From contig NZ_BDHH01000012.1 in the NCBI RefSeq assembly GCF_001748365.1, positions 85,892 to 149,891 on the forward strand: a stretch of 64,000 nt of DNA, read 5' to 3'. The DNA comes from Fusibacter sp. 3D3 (lineage in GTDB: Bacteria > Bacillota > Clostridia > Peptostreptococcales > Acidaminobacteraceae). Under the pieces are notes generated by a model. The model saw nothing but the letters and a program-made list of their open reading frames with translations, did not search any database and had not been told where the DNA came from. Numbering within the stretch: position 1 is the first letter of the stretch; each line of letters opens with the position of its first letter. This document shows positions 3,757-60,017 of this stretch, one piece after another. Made by a program: the position numbers and the translations under genes.

Positions 3757-4221
3757 ATGAAAGTAGAAAGATTATTAAATATACTCATGTATTTAATCAA
3801 CCGTAAAAAAGTCTCAGCAAATGCCTTAGCAGAACATTTTGACGTTTCTAAACGGACGATTCAAAGAGATATCGATCACTTGACACTTGCAGGGATACCC
3901 ATATATTCGGAGATTGGAAGAGGTGGCGGCTATCAACTAATGGAGCATTTTAAAATGGACAAAAGCTATCTAAATGCATCTGAATCAAATCTTCTTTACA
4001 CTTTTTTAGCAGATATAGAAAGAACGACGCCAAGTGATGAAATTCAAACTACATGTAATAAACTCATGGCACTTTTTCCTAAAGATACAGACAATGATAG
4101 ACTCATTATCCAAATGATGCCCCAATTCAATCAAGAAAATTTTAGTGTGGTGTTTAAACAGTTAACGAAAGCGAGAGCTGAACACTTAAAAGTGACTATT
4201 GCAAAAAGCGCTTCAAAATAA
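3757..4221 (+). CDS. YafY-type HTH regulator lacking most of its WYL domain
   Basis: The N-terminal HTH_11/DeoR-like domain is typical of YafY/WYL regulators (VERLLNILMYLINRKKVSANALAEHFDVSKRTIQRDIDHL, GIPIYSEIGRGGGYQL). Those proteins are usually about 300 residues; this one stops at 154, just where the WYL ligand-binding domain should begin. Either the gene is truncated and binds DNA without sensing, or it is a natural short form. The downstream 110 bases show no continuation of a WYL domain in any frame that I could recognise. Start ATG 3757 follows GAGGTGCGAAG. Confidence 0.72.
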   Translation: MKVERLLNILMYLINRKKVSANALAEHFDVSKRTIQRDIDHLTLAGIPIYSEIGRGGGYQLMEHFKMDKSYLNASESNLLYTFLADIERTTPSDEIQTTCNKLMALFPKDTDNDRLIIQMMPQFNQENFSVVFKQLTKARAEHLKVTIAKSASK

Positions 4222-4338
4222 CATTTGAGCTATTTTAGATACTTCAAGTCATAAAGAGTGACATACAGTTGTCGTCATTTATAAATTAAAATGAATTAAG
4301 AGTCTAAATAGATTCATTATTTTTAAAGGAGAACGATC

Positions 4339-4383
4339 ATGAAAATATGTCAAATATGTTTTGGAGAACTCAAATATGTTTGA
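4339..4383 (+). CDS. Possible 14-residue leader peptide overlapping the DUF3795 start
   Basis: AAAGGAGAACGATC precedes ATG 4339, and the frame encodes MKICQICFGELKYV before TGA 4381-4383. The stop overlaps the ATG (4376) of the next gene. This is the strongest ribosome binding site in the region, so ribosomes finishing the leader could reinitiate at 4376. It may instead be a relic of a longer N-terminus. Confidence 0.35.
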   Translation: MKICQICFGELKYV

Positions 4384-4636
4384 ATCTAGATGTGGTGTGC
4401 GCTGTGATATTTGTGAGCGCAAGGAACAAGTAAACTGTAAAGGGTGCACTAAAATGTCTGCGCCATTTTGGGGTGGAAAATGCGGTGTAAAATCGTGTTG
4501 TGAAGAAAAAGGCCATAATCATTGTGGCGAGTGTGACACGTTCCCATGTGAAATGCTTAGCAACATGGGGGTGGCACAAGGGTTTGATCCGTTACCCAAG
4601 ATTGAGCAGTGTAAAAAATGGAAGTGTGAAAGTTGA
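4376..4636 (+). CDS. DUF3795 cysteine-rich protein
   Basis: The 86-residue protein is rich in cysteine and matches DUF3795: CGVRCDICERKEQVNCKGC near the N-terminus, then CGVKSCCEEKGHNHCGECDTFPCEML. The arrangement suggests metal or iron-sulfur binding, but the function is unknown. I prefer ATG 4376 because GGAG (4363-4366) lies 9 bases upstream; an in-frame TTG at 4361 is a poorer choice. A short upstream frame ends inside the start codon. A rho-independent terminator follows at 4662. Confidence 0.78.
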   Translation: MFESRCGVRCDICERKEQVNCKGCTKMSAPFWGGKCGVKSCCEEKGHNHCGECDTFPCEMLSNMGVAQGFDPLPKIEQCKKWKCES

Positions 4637-55358: not shown

Positions 55359-55871
55359 TTAAGTATCGAACTCATAATAGTATAAGACATTATTATCAGT
55401 GTCAAACAGAGCTAATGTAAAATTAAATGAACCTCTATCAAAAATATTTTTGGAATCATGAATGATATTTATGTCATTAAATCGATCTATAAATAGCCAA
55501 TAGCCATTTTCTATAGTTGGTATGCCAACGTCTTCCGCTAATTTATAACTATATGTTAGACCATTTCGCTCGCCGCCATACATGAGTAGTTCTAAATCAA
55601 GTGCAAGAGGCAATTTGTTCCAAGACTTGTTGTTTTTAATATCCTCCAGTAGATTTTTTCTGCTCTTTTCATCGAAGTTCACAGTAACTAGTAATTCGCC
55701 ATCGCCATGAAATCCACCATGTGTATCAACAAGATTATATTCAAGATTATCAGGGAAGCTAATTCTTAAATCTTTAGAGATGTAATCTATATTTGATTTA
55801 TGTGAGCAACTAAATAAGGCACAAATACAGCCAATGATGAATAAACCCTTTAATACTTTTAATCGTTTCAT
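55359..55871 (-). CDS. Lipoprotein of unknown function
   Basis: The 170-residue protein has a lipobox-type signal (LKGLFIIGCICALFSC-S), giving a lipid-anchored mature protein. The mature part (SKDLRISFPDNLEYNLVDTHGG, TVNFDEKSRKNLLEDI, YYYEFDT) recalls small immunity-like or YfhG-like lipoproteins but I do not recognise a family. ATG 55871 is used; the TTG at 55877 is an alternative. It starts 3 bases after the stop of the Xre gene, so it belongs to the DUF2975-Xre operon. Confidence 0.7.
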   Translation of the reverse strand: MKRLKVLKGLFIIGCICALFSCSHKSNIDYISKDLRISFPDNLEYNLVDTHGGFHGDGELLVTVNFDEKSRKNLLEDIKNNKSWNKLPLALDLELLMYGGERNGLTYSYKLAEDVGIPTIENGYWLFIDRFNDINIIHDSKNIFDRGSFNFTLALFDTDNNVLYYYEFDT

Positions 55872-55873
55872 TT

Positions 55874-56092
55874 TCAATTCGCCTCTTTTTTATATTCCAG
55901 TAGATCTCCAGGCTGACAGTCAAGTGCAGCGCAAAGTTTCGCCAAAGTGGAAATTTTTAGAGCCTTAGCTTTGCCATTTTTTAAAATAGAAATGTTGGCA
56001 ATCGTGATACCTACGCGTTCCGCTAATTCGGTGACGCTCATTTTGCGCTTGGCAAGCATAACATCAATGTTGAAAATAATTTCATCGTTCAT
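55874..56092 (-). CDS. Xre-family HTH regulator (YozG-like)
   Basis: The 72-residue protein is a single Cro/CI-type HTH (IFNIDVMLAKRKMSVTELAERVGITIANISILKNGKAKALKI) followed by STLAKLCAALDCQPGDLLEY, the YozG/DUF2975-partner pattern. RBS GAGGAGGCC before ATG 56092. It lies 10 bases after the DUF2975 gene stop and is part of that common two-gene unit. Confidence 0.88.
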   Translation of the reverse strand: MNDEIIFNIDVMLAKRKMSVTELAERVGITIANISILKNGKAKALKISTLAKLCAALDCQPGDLLEYKKEAN

Positions 56093-56102
56093 ATTGGCCT
56101 CC

Positions 56103-56582
56103 TCATATGGTTAGATCGCTTTGTTCTTGAAGGTCTGCAGCTTTTCTTATAAGATGGGATAGCGTGGCTGAAACTGCTGATATTGCAATTCCAATGATTA
56201 ATAAAATTAGAGCGATCAGCACAAACCCTGGGTGGTTCATGTTTAGGAGCAAAAACACGATATTCATCACAAAGAAGAATCCTGTGTCTGCAACGGCGAG
56301 TACAGCGACCCATTTTAATAGTTTTGCGTTTTCAGTTGAAAAAGAGTGGTCGTCTCTTATATTTTTAGAGATTTTCCAGCCAAAGGCTAAGGCAATATAA
56401 CACGGAACTGCCGTGATCATGATCAGGATTAACCAAGGCCAATAACTGAATGCAAACTCTGGGTAATTTGCCACCATAGCTTGTCCAAGTGACGGTACAA
56501 TCCATGCATAGACGAGTAAACCACATAGACCAACAATAACGATAATTAGATTTAGCCATTTCGATAGCGATAATTGATTCAT
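56103..56582 (-). CDS. DUF2975 membrane protein
   Basis: The 159-residue protein has four hydrophobic spans (LIIVIVGLCGLLVYAWIVP, WPWLILIMITAVPCYIALAF, VAVLAVADTGFFFVMNIVFLL, FVLIALILLIIGIAISAVSA) and a central NIRDDHSFSTENAKLLKW, the DUF2975 signature loop. These proteins pair with a YozG-type Xre regulator; function unknown. ATG 56582 follows AAAGGAGCC. It is divergent from the MerR-fusion gene across a perfect 37-base palindrome. Confidence 0.85.
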   Translation of the reverse strand: MNQLSLSKWLNLIIVIVGLCGLLVYAWIVPSLGQAMVANYPEFAFSYWPWLILIMITAVPCYIALAFGWKISKNIRDDHSFSTENAKLLKWVAVLAVADTGFFFVMNIVFLLLNMNHPGFVLIALILLIIGIAISAVSATLSHLIRKAADLQEQSDLTI

Positions 56583-56658
56583 AAAGGCTCCTTTCATTTT
56601 GGGGGATCATAAGATTGCCACTAGTTACTTTGATTATACGGATCCATACACAAAATGT

Positions 56659-56695
56659 CAACAAACATTTATCGTATAACGATAAATGTTTGTTG
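56659..56695. promoter_or_regulatory. Perfect 37-base palindrome between divergent genes
   Basis: CAACAAACATTTATCGT, then ATA, then its exact reverse complement ACGATAAATGTTTGTTG. It lies 76 bases before the DUF2975 start and 26 bases before the MerR-fusion start, without a following U-run, so an operator is more likely than a terminator. Confidence 0.72.
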
Positions 56696-56721
56696 TTTAA
56701 CTTTATAAAGGAGGACATGAA

Positions 56722-57579
56722 ATGGAAATTAGTCAAGTATCTGAACGGTTCAAGATAAAAGCACATACTTTGAGATATTATGAAAGTATTGGATTGATTC
56801 AAAACATAGAGAGAGATGCATCGGGAAAAAGGGCTTATTCAGAAAAGGATTTAGTCTGGCTTGATATGATCATGAGATTAAGAGCGACGGGTATGCCAAT
56901 AGAAAAGATGAAGACATATGCAAGACCGGTACTAGATTTAAAGTCCAAGGAAATTGCTGTGGTAGCAGCTTTAACCGCAATTGGCACCGCTGAACCTCAG
57001 TTAAAGGTACATATAAATGGGGCTTTAAATGTGGGATGTAGCATCAATGAAGTTAAAGAAGTAATGCTTCAAATGTCTGGATATTCAAGATTTCCAAGCA
57101 CAATCAACGCAATGAATGCTTTAAAAGAAGTTTTGGAGGCTCGTAAAAAACAAGGGATTCAAGATAAAGAAGGCGCATTGGCGACTAAAACATGTTCAGA
57201 ACCGGATCGGTTTAAGCAAGGTAGTAAAATGCTTGCTGTTTTAGATGAAGCGCAACTGGCAATACTTGAAAGTACTTACAATGACTTTGCCCCCGATCTC
57301 GTCAAATTAGTGGTGAATAGTTATGCAGATGTGATATCAAGAGATAACTTAGACTTAAGATATAGACAAATCGCAACGATAGCAGCACTTACAGCCTTGG
57401 GAAATGCAAAACCACAACTGAAATTTCACATAAAAGCGGGCCTCAATATAGGCCTTTCAAAAGAAGAAATCACAGAAATTATGTACTTGATGACCGTTTA
57501 CACTGGTTTCCCTTCCGCCATAAACGGCATAAATGCTCTAAAAGAAGTCGCCAATGTTCAAGGCGCTGTTGCAAAATAG
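56722..57579 (+). CDS. MerR HTH fused to tandem carboxymuconolactone-decarboxylase domains
   Basis: The 285-residue chimera has residues 1-66 as a MerR winged HTH (ISQVSERFKIKAHTLRYYES, RLRATGMPIEKMKTYA). From about residue 67 it reads RPVLDLKSKEIAVVAALTAI, the start of a gamma-CMD/AhpD-like unit (to about 140) followed by a second, complete CMD unit (about 175-280; LDLRYRQIATIAALTALGNA). The first CMD unit lacks its N-terminal helix and the MerR lacks its dimerisation coil. The joint at Tyr-Ala-Arg is sequence both parents typically share, so a deletion fused a merR gene to its CMD neighbour. RBS AAAGGAGGAC before ATG 56722. Confidence 0.8.
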   Translation: MEISQVSERFKIKAHTLRYYESIGLIQNIERDASGKRAYSEKDLVWLDMIMRLRATGMPIEKMKTYARPVLDLKSKEIAVVAALTAIGTAEPQLKVHINGALNVGCSINEVKEVMLQMSGYSRFPSTINAMNALKEVLEARKKQGIQDKEGALATKTCSEPDRFKQGSKMLAVLDEAQLAILESTYNDFAPDLVKLVVNSYADVISRDNLDLRYRQIATIAALTALGNAKPQLKFHIKAGLNIGLSKEEITEIMYLMTVYTGFPSAINGINALKEVANVQGAVAK

Positions 57580-57687: not shown

Positions 57688-57707
57688 TAAAGTGAGAGGT
57701 GATAAAT

Positions 57708-58460
57708 ATGAGCAAAATAGCACTTGAAGTAAAGGGTCTTGTAAAGCAATACAAGGATTTAACCGCTGTGAATGATCTTGATTTAAAGGTGGAAGCAGGC
57801 AAAATATATGGTCTTTTAGGACCAAATGGTGCGGGAAAATCCACGACAATTGACTGTGTTTTAGGCATGAAACCCTATCTAAAAGGTGAAATCACGGTTT
57901 TAGGGTTATCGCCAACAAAAGATAGAAAAAAGCTCTATCAACGTGTAGGCGTTCAATTTCAATCTAGTTTTTATCCAGAGCGCATTAAAGTTTATGAAAT
58001 ATGTGAAATGATTTCGGCACTATATAAAAGTCCAGATGATTGGCGTGGGTTGCTCAAGCAATTCAATTTAGAAGCAAAATCCAGACATTATGTGGCTTCA
58101 CTTTCAGGTGGAGAAAGGCAGAAACTGTCTGTTTTACTGGCACTGATTCAGAAACCTGAAATGGTATTTTTAGATGAGCTCACCACGGGACTTGATCCTA
58201 AGGCCAGACGTGAAGTTTGGACACTGTTAAAAAAACTGAATCAAAACGGCTTGACGATCTTTCTAACATCGCATTATATGGATGAAGTCATGGCACTTTG
58301 TGATGAAGTGAATATTATCAATCATGGGGTTTCGGTGGCCTCGGGTACGCCACAAGATATTATTGCACTTTCAGGCATGCAGAATTTAGAAGAAGCTTAT
58401 TTGTATTTTATCGATGAGAAGGAGATGATTCATGGTGAAGTCGCTTTTGATATTTTATAA
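57708..58460 (+). CDS. ABC exporter ATP-binding protein
   Basis: The 250-residue DrrA/CcmA-type ATPase has Walker A GLLGPNGAGKST, Q-loop VGVQFQSSFYPE, signature SLSGGERQKLSV, Walker B MVFLDELTTGLDP (Glu followed by Leu, where Pro is usual) and the switch histidine in FLTSHYMDEV. It pairs with the ABC-2 permease whose start lies 29 bases inside this gene. ATG 57708 follows GAGAGGTGATAA. The substrate is probably a drug or peptide because the operon is under a MerR-GyrI regulator. Confidence 0.92.
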   Translation: MSKIALEVKGLVKQYKDLTAVNDLDLKVEAGKIYGLLGPNGAGKSTTIDCVLGMKPYLKGEITVLGLSPTKDRKKLYQRVGVQFQSSFYPERIKVYEICEMISALYKSPDDWRGLLKQFNLEAKSRHYVASLSGGERQKLSVLLALIQKPEMVFLDELTTGLDPKARREVWTLLKKLNQNGLTIFLTSHYMDEVMALCDEVNIINHGVSVASGTPQDIIALSGMQNLEEAYLYFIDEKEMIHGEVAFDIL

Positions 58461-59187
58461 AACAGAATTTAAACTTGCATTTAGAGAATTTTCGGGTGTC
58501 CTCTTTGGAATTTTTCTCCCCATTGGCATTATGCTTTTACTGGGCATACTCTATGGGGATAAACTCGCTTATGAAAACGCACCTTATACGCTTTTGCAGC
58601 AATCTGTTGCAGCGGTACTGACTGTAGGCATCTGCGCAACGGGGCTCATGGGGGTCCCTTTAACACTTTCGGGATACAGAGAAAAGAAAATATTAAAAAG
58701 ATTCAAAGCATCGCCTGCATCGCCACTACTATTGATTTTAGCGCAATTTCTCAATAATATGACCTATGCGATTATTTCAAGTGTGGCAGTGGTGGGCATA
58801 GCGGTTTTCGGTTTTGGTTATAGAATGATTGGCAATCCGGTTTTGTTTATATTGTCCTATGGGTTACTCATGGTGGCAATCTATGCCATTGGCGCTATGA
58901 TTGCAAGTATAGCCAAATCTGAAAAAATCGCTAATATGCTGTGTACGCTTTTCTATTTTCCCATGTTCTTTTTATCGGGTGCGACGATTCCCTACGAACT
59001 CATGCCAAAGGGGCTTCGGTTTTTCGCAGACATTATGCCGCTGACACAAGGCATAAAACTTTTGAAAGCGACTTCTTTGGGTGAATGGCAAACAGATTCT
59101 ATGAATGCAATTTGGATTTTGATTTTTACTGCGATTTTGGGTATGATTATAGCAGTAAGAACTTTTAAATACGAATATGAATCTTAA
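58432..59187 (+). CDS. ABC-2 type permease
   Basis: The 251-residue permease has six spans and the ABC-2 signature segments FREFSGVLFGIFLPIGIMLL, GVPLTLSGYREKKILKRFKASPASPLLLI and ANMLCTLFYFPMFFLSGATIPYELMPKGL. It overlaps the ATPase gene by 29 bases (RBS GAAGGAGATGATTC, ATG 58432) and is followed by the MerR gene after 20 bases. It exports an unknown substrate. Confidence 0.9.
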   Translation: MVKSLLIFYKTEFKLAFREFSGVLFGIFLPIGIMLLLGILYGDKLAYENAPYTLLQQSVAAVLTVGICATGLMGVPLTLSGYREKKILKRFKASPASPLLLILAQFLNNMTYAIISSVAVVGIAVFGFGYRMIGNPVLFILSYGLLMVAIYAIGAMIASIAKSEKIANMLCTLFYFPMFFLSGATIPYELMPKGLRFFADIMPLTQGIKLLKATSLGEWQTDSMNAIWILIFTAILGMIIAVRTFKYEYES

Positions 59188-59207
59188 GCCGATAAGGATG
59201 TGTGCCC

Positions 59208-60017
59208 ATGTTTCAAATTGGACTATTTTCAAAGATGAATCGAGTTACCACCAAGACGTTGAGACACTATGATGAGATAGGCCTTCTAAAACCTGCTTTT
59301 GTGGATCAACAGACGGGTTATCGCTATTATGGCAGTGCAGAACTGCTCAGGCTCAATAAAATCATTGCGCTTAAACAATTAGGACTTAGTCTTCAAGAGA
59401 TTCAAGAGTTGATAGATCAACAGAAGGGCATAGATGTTTTTTTAACACTTAAGGAAAAGGAAATTGAGATTAAGATTAAAGAAGAAACTTCTAAGCTCAG
59501 TCGGCTTCAAAATTATTCGAGGTATTTAAGAGGAGAGCAGAATATGAATTATTCACCTGTAATCAAAGCGTTACCAGAAGTGATTGTGGCTTCTATGCGG
59601 TTAATCGCTCCTAATTATGAGTCTTACTTTGATATTATTCCTAAAATGGGAGAAGAAATGAGAGAAAAGGGTGCCGTATGTGCAGTACCAGAGTATTGCT
59701 TCAATATTTATCATGATGGCGAGTACAAAGAAAGTGAGATTGATTTAGAAGTTTGTGAAGCTGTTGTGGCGTACTGTGAAGATTCTGAAAAAGTTAAGTA
59801 TAAGAAGATAGATGCCGTGGAAAATGCCTTATGTGTGATGCATAAGGGCCCATATACTACACTACCCGATGCGTATGCATTTGCTTTTTCATGGATAGAG
59901 ACGAATGCGTATGTGGTGGGAGGGTTGCCGCGTGAGTCTTATATTGACGGTATTTGGAATAAGGAAGACGAAAATGAATGGCTTACTGAACTTCAAATTC
60001 CGGTGAAAAAAATATAA
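59208..60017 (+). CDS. MerR-family regulator with GyrI-like domain
   Basis: The 269-residue BmrR-like protein has a MerR HTH (FQIGLFSKMNRVTTKTLRHYDEIGLLKPAF), a coiled coil (KEKEIEIKIKEETSKLSRLQ) and a C-terminal GyrI-like domain (EVIVASMRLIAPNYESYFDIIP, CVMHKGPYTTLPDAYAFAFSWI, WLTELQIPV). It should bind a hydrophobic cation or similar drug and activate the ABC operon from the 19-base-spacer promoter at 57657. ATG 59208 has AAGGATG 8 bases upstream; GTG 59202 is the alternative. Confidence 0.9.
   Translation: MFQIGLFSKMNRVTTKTLRHYDEIGLLKPAFVDQQTGYRYYGSAELLRLNKIIALKQLGLSLQEIQELIDQQKGIDVFLTLKEKEIEIKIKEETSKLSRLQNYSRYLRGEQNMNYSPVIKALPEVIVASMRLIAPNYESYFDIIPKMGEEMREKGAVCAVPEYCFNIYHDGEYKESEIDLEVCEAVVAYCEDSEKVKYKKIDAVENALCVMHKGPYTTLPDAYAFAFSWIETNAYVVGGLPRESYIDGIWNKEDENEWLTELQIPVKKI

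Follow-up and report, generated by a model that had tools for sequence, protein, structure and literature searches.

MerR proteins form dimers mainly through the coiled coil of their dimerisation helices, and bind in long promoter spacers (excerpted text of PMC9909328). In B. subtilis, the carboxymuconolactone decarboxylase (CMD) gene yraC is upregulated by AdhR, according to excerpts of PMC4776306 and PMC11577753. Within the NmlR/AdhR clade, the cysteine that is Cys54 in NmlR of H. influenzae is described as absolutely conserved (excerpt of PMC4776306).

The window analysed here is a stretch of 64,000 nucleotides from Fusibacter sp. 3D3, in which a MerR DNA-binding head is joined to a truncated two-domain CMD. 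The reference for the comparison was a locus (L010) of Fusibacter ferrireducens Q10-2 (genome G001), a member of the same genus. The genome of the window is designated G000.

The fusion ORF and its domains

The features of the fusion, in window coordinates, were as follows.

56708 to 56714, + strand: ribosome-binding site aaggagg, read by eye, inherited from merR and identical in L010
56722 to 57579, + strand: fusion ORF of 285 aa, encoding a MerR winged HTH followed by a truncated two-domain CMD
56722 to 56922, + strand: MerR DNA-binding head (residues 1-67) without the dimerisation helix; Pfam MerR_1 at residues 1-66
56917 to 57156, + strand: remnant of CMD domain 1, with the first two helices gone and the change G123R
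57205 to 57552, + strand: CMD domain 2, complete (residues 162-277)

The N-terminal winged HTH typical of the MerR family was complete in the fusion, with a MerR_1 (PF13411) match of 59.3 bits at residues 1-66 against a cut-off of 21.6. PF09278 gave no Pfam match in the fusion, though it matched at 46-103 in the L010 MerR. The dimerisation helix of the family was missing, its stretch falling within the 307-bp gap described below.

The two CMD stretches together scored 103.4 bits in Pfam (PF02627, cut-off 23). Domain 1 was partial, covering profile positions 15-84 of 84, and domain 2 covered all of positions 1-84. The frame stayed open for 218 codons beyond the joint, with zero frameshifts and zero stops. 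The original prediction of a MerR-CMD chimera was borne out in this respect: one open ORF encoded a MerR head and then a truncated CMD, without the dimerisation helix.

Among the NCBIfam regulators, the NmlR/AdhR group (NF041849) was the best match for both the fusion head and the L010 MerR. The scores were 59.7 and 89.7, respectively, below the 175-bit cut-off of this equivalog. The position of the clade cysteine was occupied by arginine in the window, in L010 and in four other loci described below (L011-L013 and L054). Membership in the NmlR group was rejected on the absence of the Cys54 equivalent and the score below the cut-off. The dimerisation helix of NmlR/AdhR-type regulators was also gone in the fusion.

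On the enzyme side, the fusion differed from two-domain CMD proteins in that a MerR head replaced the first two helices of domain 1. PDB 4g9q, a two-domain CMD, was the best fold match of the AlphaFold model of the intact L010 CMD (pLDDT 93.3, pTM 0.92), and also of the weak model of the fusion. The latter was built on a shallow alignment (pTM 0.69; best pLDDT 80.1, the other four 57-67), and was too weak to support any claim about the joint. Both the fusion (93.9 bits) and the intact L010 CMD (113.9 bits) scored below the PcaC equivalog cut-off of 155.7 bits.

In the 5.11-Mb genome G000, the only full-length match to the fusion gene was the gene itself. Three other places matched the MerR head alone, at 35-40% identity. 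The sole other CMD-like place found in this genome was a 77-aa open frame with a CMD match (G000:C32:21406-21546).

Intact merR-CMD pairs in relatives

The original prediction attributed the chimera to a deletion that joined merR to a neighbouring CMD gene, and proposed a search for separate pairs in relatives. The search found them. L010 shared the neighbourhood and flanking genes of the window, but its merR and CMD were intact and overlapping. There, merR occupied 4001-4375, and the two-domain CMD ORF ran from 4311; its likely start, judged by comparison with L012, was 4359.

Intact pairs, each on one strand, were also present in three Clostridium genomes (L011-L013) and in L054 (genome G599), and the two genes overlapped in the three Clostridium genomes as in L010. 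The intact pairs in F. ferrireducens, Clostridium and L054 indicated that separate genes are the ancestral state.

Altogether, 14 distinct loci among those fetched had merR and CMD side by side, in the same orientation or divergent. The pairs in Fusibacter, Clostridium and others had the order and strand of the fusion's presumed ancestor, and the close group shared an operator. They consisted of two genes, overlapping in the close group, whereas the fusion was one chimeric ORF without that operator.

Three loci with a two-domain CMD of 54-63% identity (L025, L026 and L053) had no merR match alongside within the stretch fetched. In the third genome of the genus (G002), the MerR and CMD matches were weak only, and lay on different contigs. 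At L031 (G219:C1:1359879-1360085) the query had a CMD-like match of 62% identity, interrupted by three stops, which is perhaps another decayed CMD gene.

A 307-bp deletion at the joint

56917 to 56923, + strand: joint of the deletion, TATGCAA; the L010 counterparts are an upstream copy, TATTCAA (4196-4202), and a downstream copy, TATGCAA (4503-4509), offset by 307 bp

On the 5' side of the joint, the window aligned to the L010 merR up to 4202, and on the 3' side to the L010 CMD from 4503. The 307 bp between these points were absent from the window. The joint matched the upstream copy in L010 at 6/7 nt and the downstream copy at 7/7 nt, the two flanks having 6/7 nt in common. Of 112,200 pairs of 7-mers lying 150-450 bp apart in L010, 410 (0.37%) matched that well, a figure that holds for one register and carries no correction for the choice among registers. 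A short shared sequence had been predicted as the probable mediator of the deletion, and this 7-nt near-repeat agreed with that proposal.

In the protein, the joint corresponded to Tyr66-Ala67-Arg68 of the fusion. At this position the three Clostridium MerR proteins had Tyr-Ala and L010 had Tyr-Ser. This suggested that the ancestral repeat may have been perfect.

The deletion took out the helix by which MerR dimerises, the overlap of the two genes and CMD residues 1-48. In the model of the intact L010 CMD, helices were predicted at 6-32 and 34-48, and the lost residues would be the first two helices of domain 1.

A second gap and the lost MerR operator

56696 to 56704, approximate site, no strand: second gap, where 208 bp of L010 including the MerR operator are absent; from the palindrome core to the start codon there are 52 bp here versus 260 bp in L010

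The left breakpoint of this gap could not be placed exactly. The deletion picture of the original prediction was supported for the joint, but it had overlooked this second, upstream gap and the operator lost with it.

The sequence CTTAAAG-N4-CTTTAAG preceded merR, with 0 mismatches, in 5/5 close intact pairs (L005/L010, L011, L012, L013 and L054). We take this operator to resemble that of AdhR. In the close pairs it was flanked by a TTGACT and a TATNNT hexamer 19 bp apart (spacing counted by eye). In L010 the operator lay at 3947-3977, and its counterparts stood upstream of the merR genes of L011, L012, L013 and L054, whose products lack the NmlR cysteine. In nine more distant merR-CMD loci the best sites had 2-6 mismatches to the core, which marked the core as a feature of the close group.

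The longer pattern TTGACTTAAAGN4CTTTAAGT had exactly one perfect site in G001, which was the one before merR. In G000 no site was found within 2 mismatches; the best had 3 mismatches, with 4 matches versus 7 for a reversed-pattern control. A search of G000 with the core only gave six sites, one of them with a single mismatch and the others with 2, near the control numbers. No operator in a 19-20-bp promoter spacer, the arrangement of the MerR family, stood before the fusion. As far as can be told from these sequences, the main target of this MerR would be its own operon, now gone.

The palindrome and the divergent DUF2975-HTH operon

56659 to 56695, no strand: perfect palindrome of 37 bp, with 17-bp arms and a 3-nt centre; core TATCGTATAACGATA at 56670-56684
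56633 to 56661, - strand: sigma-70-type promoter, 12/12, TTGACA-17-TATAAT, facing the DUF2975 gene; the -35 overlaps the palindrome edge by 3 bp
56103 to 56597, - strand: DUF2975 gene (Pfam), divergent neighbour of the fusion
55874 to 56092, - strand: small HTH regulator of 72 aa, encoded second in the DUF2975 operon; the palindrome probably belongs to it

The palindrome had been put forward as a regulatory site of the fusion. This claim did not hold. The core fitted TATYGN5CRATA, a motif conserved before DUF2975-HTH operons, and the edge of the palindrome overlapped the -35 of the divergent DUF2975 promoter. The core pattern matched once in the whole of G000, at the palindrome itself. L010 had a degenerate version beside its own DUF2975 gene.

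Of 29 relative loci fetched, two (L087 and L089), in which no upstream ORF was found, were dropped; the motif was present in 23/27 of the rest. Pfam classed the upstream ORF as DUF2975 in 26 of these 27; the remaining locus, L083, was among the four that lacked the motif. TATYGN5CRATA thus stood upstream of the first gene in 23/26 relative operons beginning with a Pfam-classed DUF2975 gene, and also in the window and L010; three of the loci counted (L098-L100) were near-identical members of one genus. The chance expectation, from mononucleotide shuffles of the 29 sequences, was 0.03.

The pattern was picked after inspection of sequences, so 20 loci outside its definition served as a held-out test. 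In only 8/20 of them did tblastn, at E up to 1, match a DUF2975 gene, and distance to the HTH gene was therefore used instead: the motif lay 480-680 bp upstream of it in 13/20, a count by position relative to the HTH gene, whatever the family of the upstream gene. In 6 of the 8 loci with a DUF2975 match, the motif lay at most 200 bp upstream of it. The held-out loci held 21 occurrences in 61,849 bases. The relative loci considered for the motif span L083-L131.

The most plausible role of the palindrome is that of an operator for the small HTH protein encoded in the DUF2975 operon. As the fusion's own operator it was rejected, its core being a conserved element of DUF2975-HTH operons. Among the open-licence PMC papers listed for DUF2975, no description of the motif was found. 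For other workers, this conserved operator-like motif before DUF2975-HTH operons of the class may have more use than the fusion itself.

Spread of the fusion

A search with the fusion protein covered 3 genomes of the genus, 41 of the family, 391 of the class and 398 of the phylum. In each set the fusion was seen in one genome, G000, and no other protein combined the head with CMD. Matches were taken at E 1e-8 for the genus, 1e-10 for the family and 1e-14 for class and phylum. The class and phylum sets were samples of larger groups with at most six candidates scored per genome, and the four samples overlapped, at least in G000. Wide occurrence, which would have argued against a recent accident, was not seen.

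Among the MerR-head matches listed, the surrounding open frames were at most 165 aa long. Two CMD frames whose BLAST match started inside the head region (L033 and L057) and two long CMD frames (L035 and L014) were rejected as fusions, as Pfam showed only CMD in them. Among the open-licence PMC papers listed for MerR with CMD and for such fusions, titles and abstract openings mentioned no MerR-CMD fusion.

Origin and likely fate of the fusion

We consider it likely that the fused gene is a recent, non-adaptive, lineage-specific remnant. At best it would yield a CMD in small amounts, with a second domain that perhaps still folds. Judging from the relatives' sequences, the ancestor would have been a merR-CMD operon, in which MerR acted on its own promoter by way of CTTAAAG-N4-CTTTAAG, located in a spacer of 19 bp. 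Comparison with L010 shows that a 307-bp deletion across the 7-nt near-repeat fused the head to the enzyme in frame; lost with it were the dimerisation helix of MerR, the stretch shared by the two genes, and the start of CMD domain 1 with its first two helices. The 208-bp gap upstream, arising before or after it, removed the merR promoter-operator and left the fusion just behind the DUF2975 operator-promoter.

We would hardly expect the product to work as a MerR regulator: the coil for dimer formation is missing, and the genome offers no good cognate site. Of the two options originally offered, a recent accident is favoured, and a new one-component sensor is not, the operator and the dimerisation helix being gone. 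Residual activity of CMD domain 2 is possible, in view of the open frame and the lack of excess decay.

The ancestral arrangement, intact within the same genus, makes this a clear and directly readable case of a chimeric gene arising through microhomology deletion. We rate it as ordinary but instructive: an open frame with two good domain matches can be a by-product, and the telling evidence was the loss of operator and coil.

Possible constraint on the CMD part

A working CMD enzyme, in which domain 2 stays folded and active while the MerR head is tolerated as a leader, is rather unlikely. Domain 2 was a full-length Pfam match. Between the window and L010, the CMD had pN 0.083 and pS 0.496, a pN/pS of about 0.15-0.17, and their divergence looks still constrained. 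The window CMD was no farther from the Clostridium copies than that of L010 (e.g. 100 versus 112 nonsynonymous differences to L012). That G000 gave no further CMD place besides the 77-aa frame noted above also speaks for this reading. Against it stood the weak model of the fusion, the lack of a recognised + strand promoter-like site upstream of the fusion, and a domain 1 that lacks two helices and carries G123R.

In the alignment of 22 rows, all 21 apart from the window had Gly at the position of G123R. With conservation set at 95% or more of these 21 rows, 14 columns qualified; the window departed at this one, and at none in domain 2. Eight of the 21 other rows departed at one or two conserved columns (range 0 to 2), and L010 had its own derived changes, including C106S. 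G123R was therefore rejected as proof of decay, other rows departing at conserved columns as often. We read the CMD data as showing neither decay nor selection after fusion; continued selection and a too recent deletion would both fit.

A mosaic pattern around the head

The MerR head differed from that of L010 at 4/67 residues. The block between the two gaps (56701-56923) was 95% identical to L010, compared with 84% for the CMD and 74% (73/99) for the intergenic stretch on the DUF2975 side. The head had a pS of 0.153 versus 0.48-0.50 for the CMD (Fisher p 9e-5), and no low-pS head was seen in the three Clostridium pairs.

These values fit an origin by one recombination event, in which a head fragment like that of F. 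ferrireducens was joined illegitimately at both ends, bringing fusion and operator loss together. Homology-facilitated illegitimate recombination with 3-10 bp segments has been described for other bacteria (excerpt of PMC6382021). This origin, which is compatible with the other readings, we regard as improbable. The gene at 55362-55877 was also unusually close to L010 (pS 0.196; the other eight genes compared, 0.45-0.59) without such a gap. This suggested that the low divergence may be unrelated mosaicism, and two ordinary deletions suffice. The two low-pS patches, 55362-55877 and 56701-56923, make recombination between Fusibacter lineages likely. Conservation of the head was not accepted as evidence that the fusion is under selection, because synonymous sites were low too and the neighbouring gene without a gap was alike.

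Improbable readings: a new regulator or an artefact

CMD proteins form oligomers, and PDB entry 2af7 (CMD) holds 9 chains. Such a body could present paired MerR heads to DNA, and the head was complete and little changed from L010, both points in favour of a new one-component regulator. Such a regulator is nevertheless very improbable. The coiled-coil dimerisation helix, the main MerR dimer contact in the excerpt of PMC9909328, was deleted, no promoter-type cognate operator stood within 2 mismatches in G000, no promoter was recognised, the palindrome core belonged to another kind of operon, and the fusion was found in one genome only. A more specific version, that the fusion is expressed under the DUF2975-HTH operator as a CMD oligomer whose MerR heads bind DNA outside the usual MerR dimer geometry, soon after birth by one microhomology deletion, would be similarly far-fetched.

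An assembly or contamination artefact is scarcely credible: the genome is a single draft of 57 contigs, but gene order followed L010, the flanking blocks were 84-85% identical to it on both sides (74% further left), the joint was internal to a contig that has at least 149,891 bases, and assemblers are not misled by repeats as short as 7 nt. Downstream of the fusion, an ABC transporter pair and then a MerR-GyrI regulator occupied 57699-60017, and L010 kept the same order.
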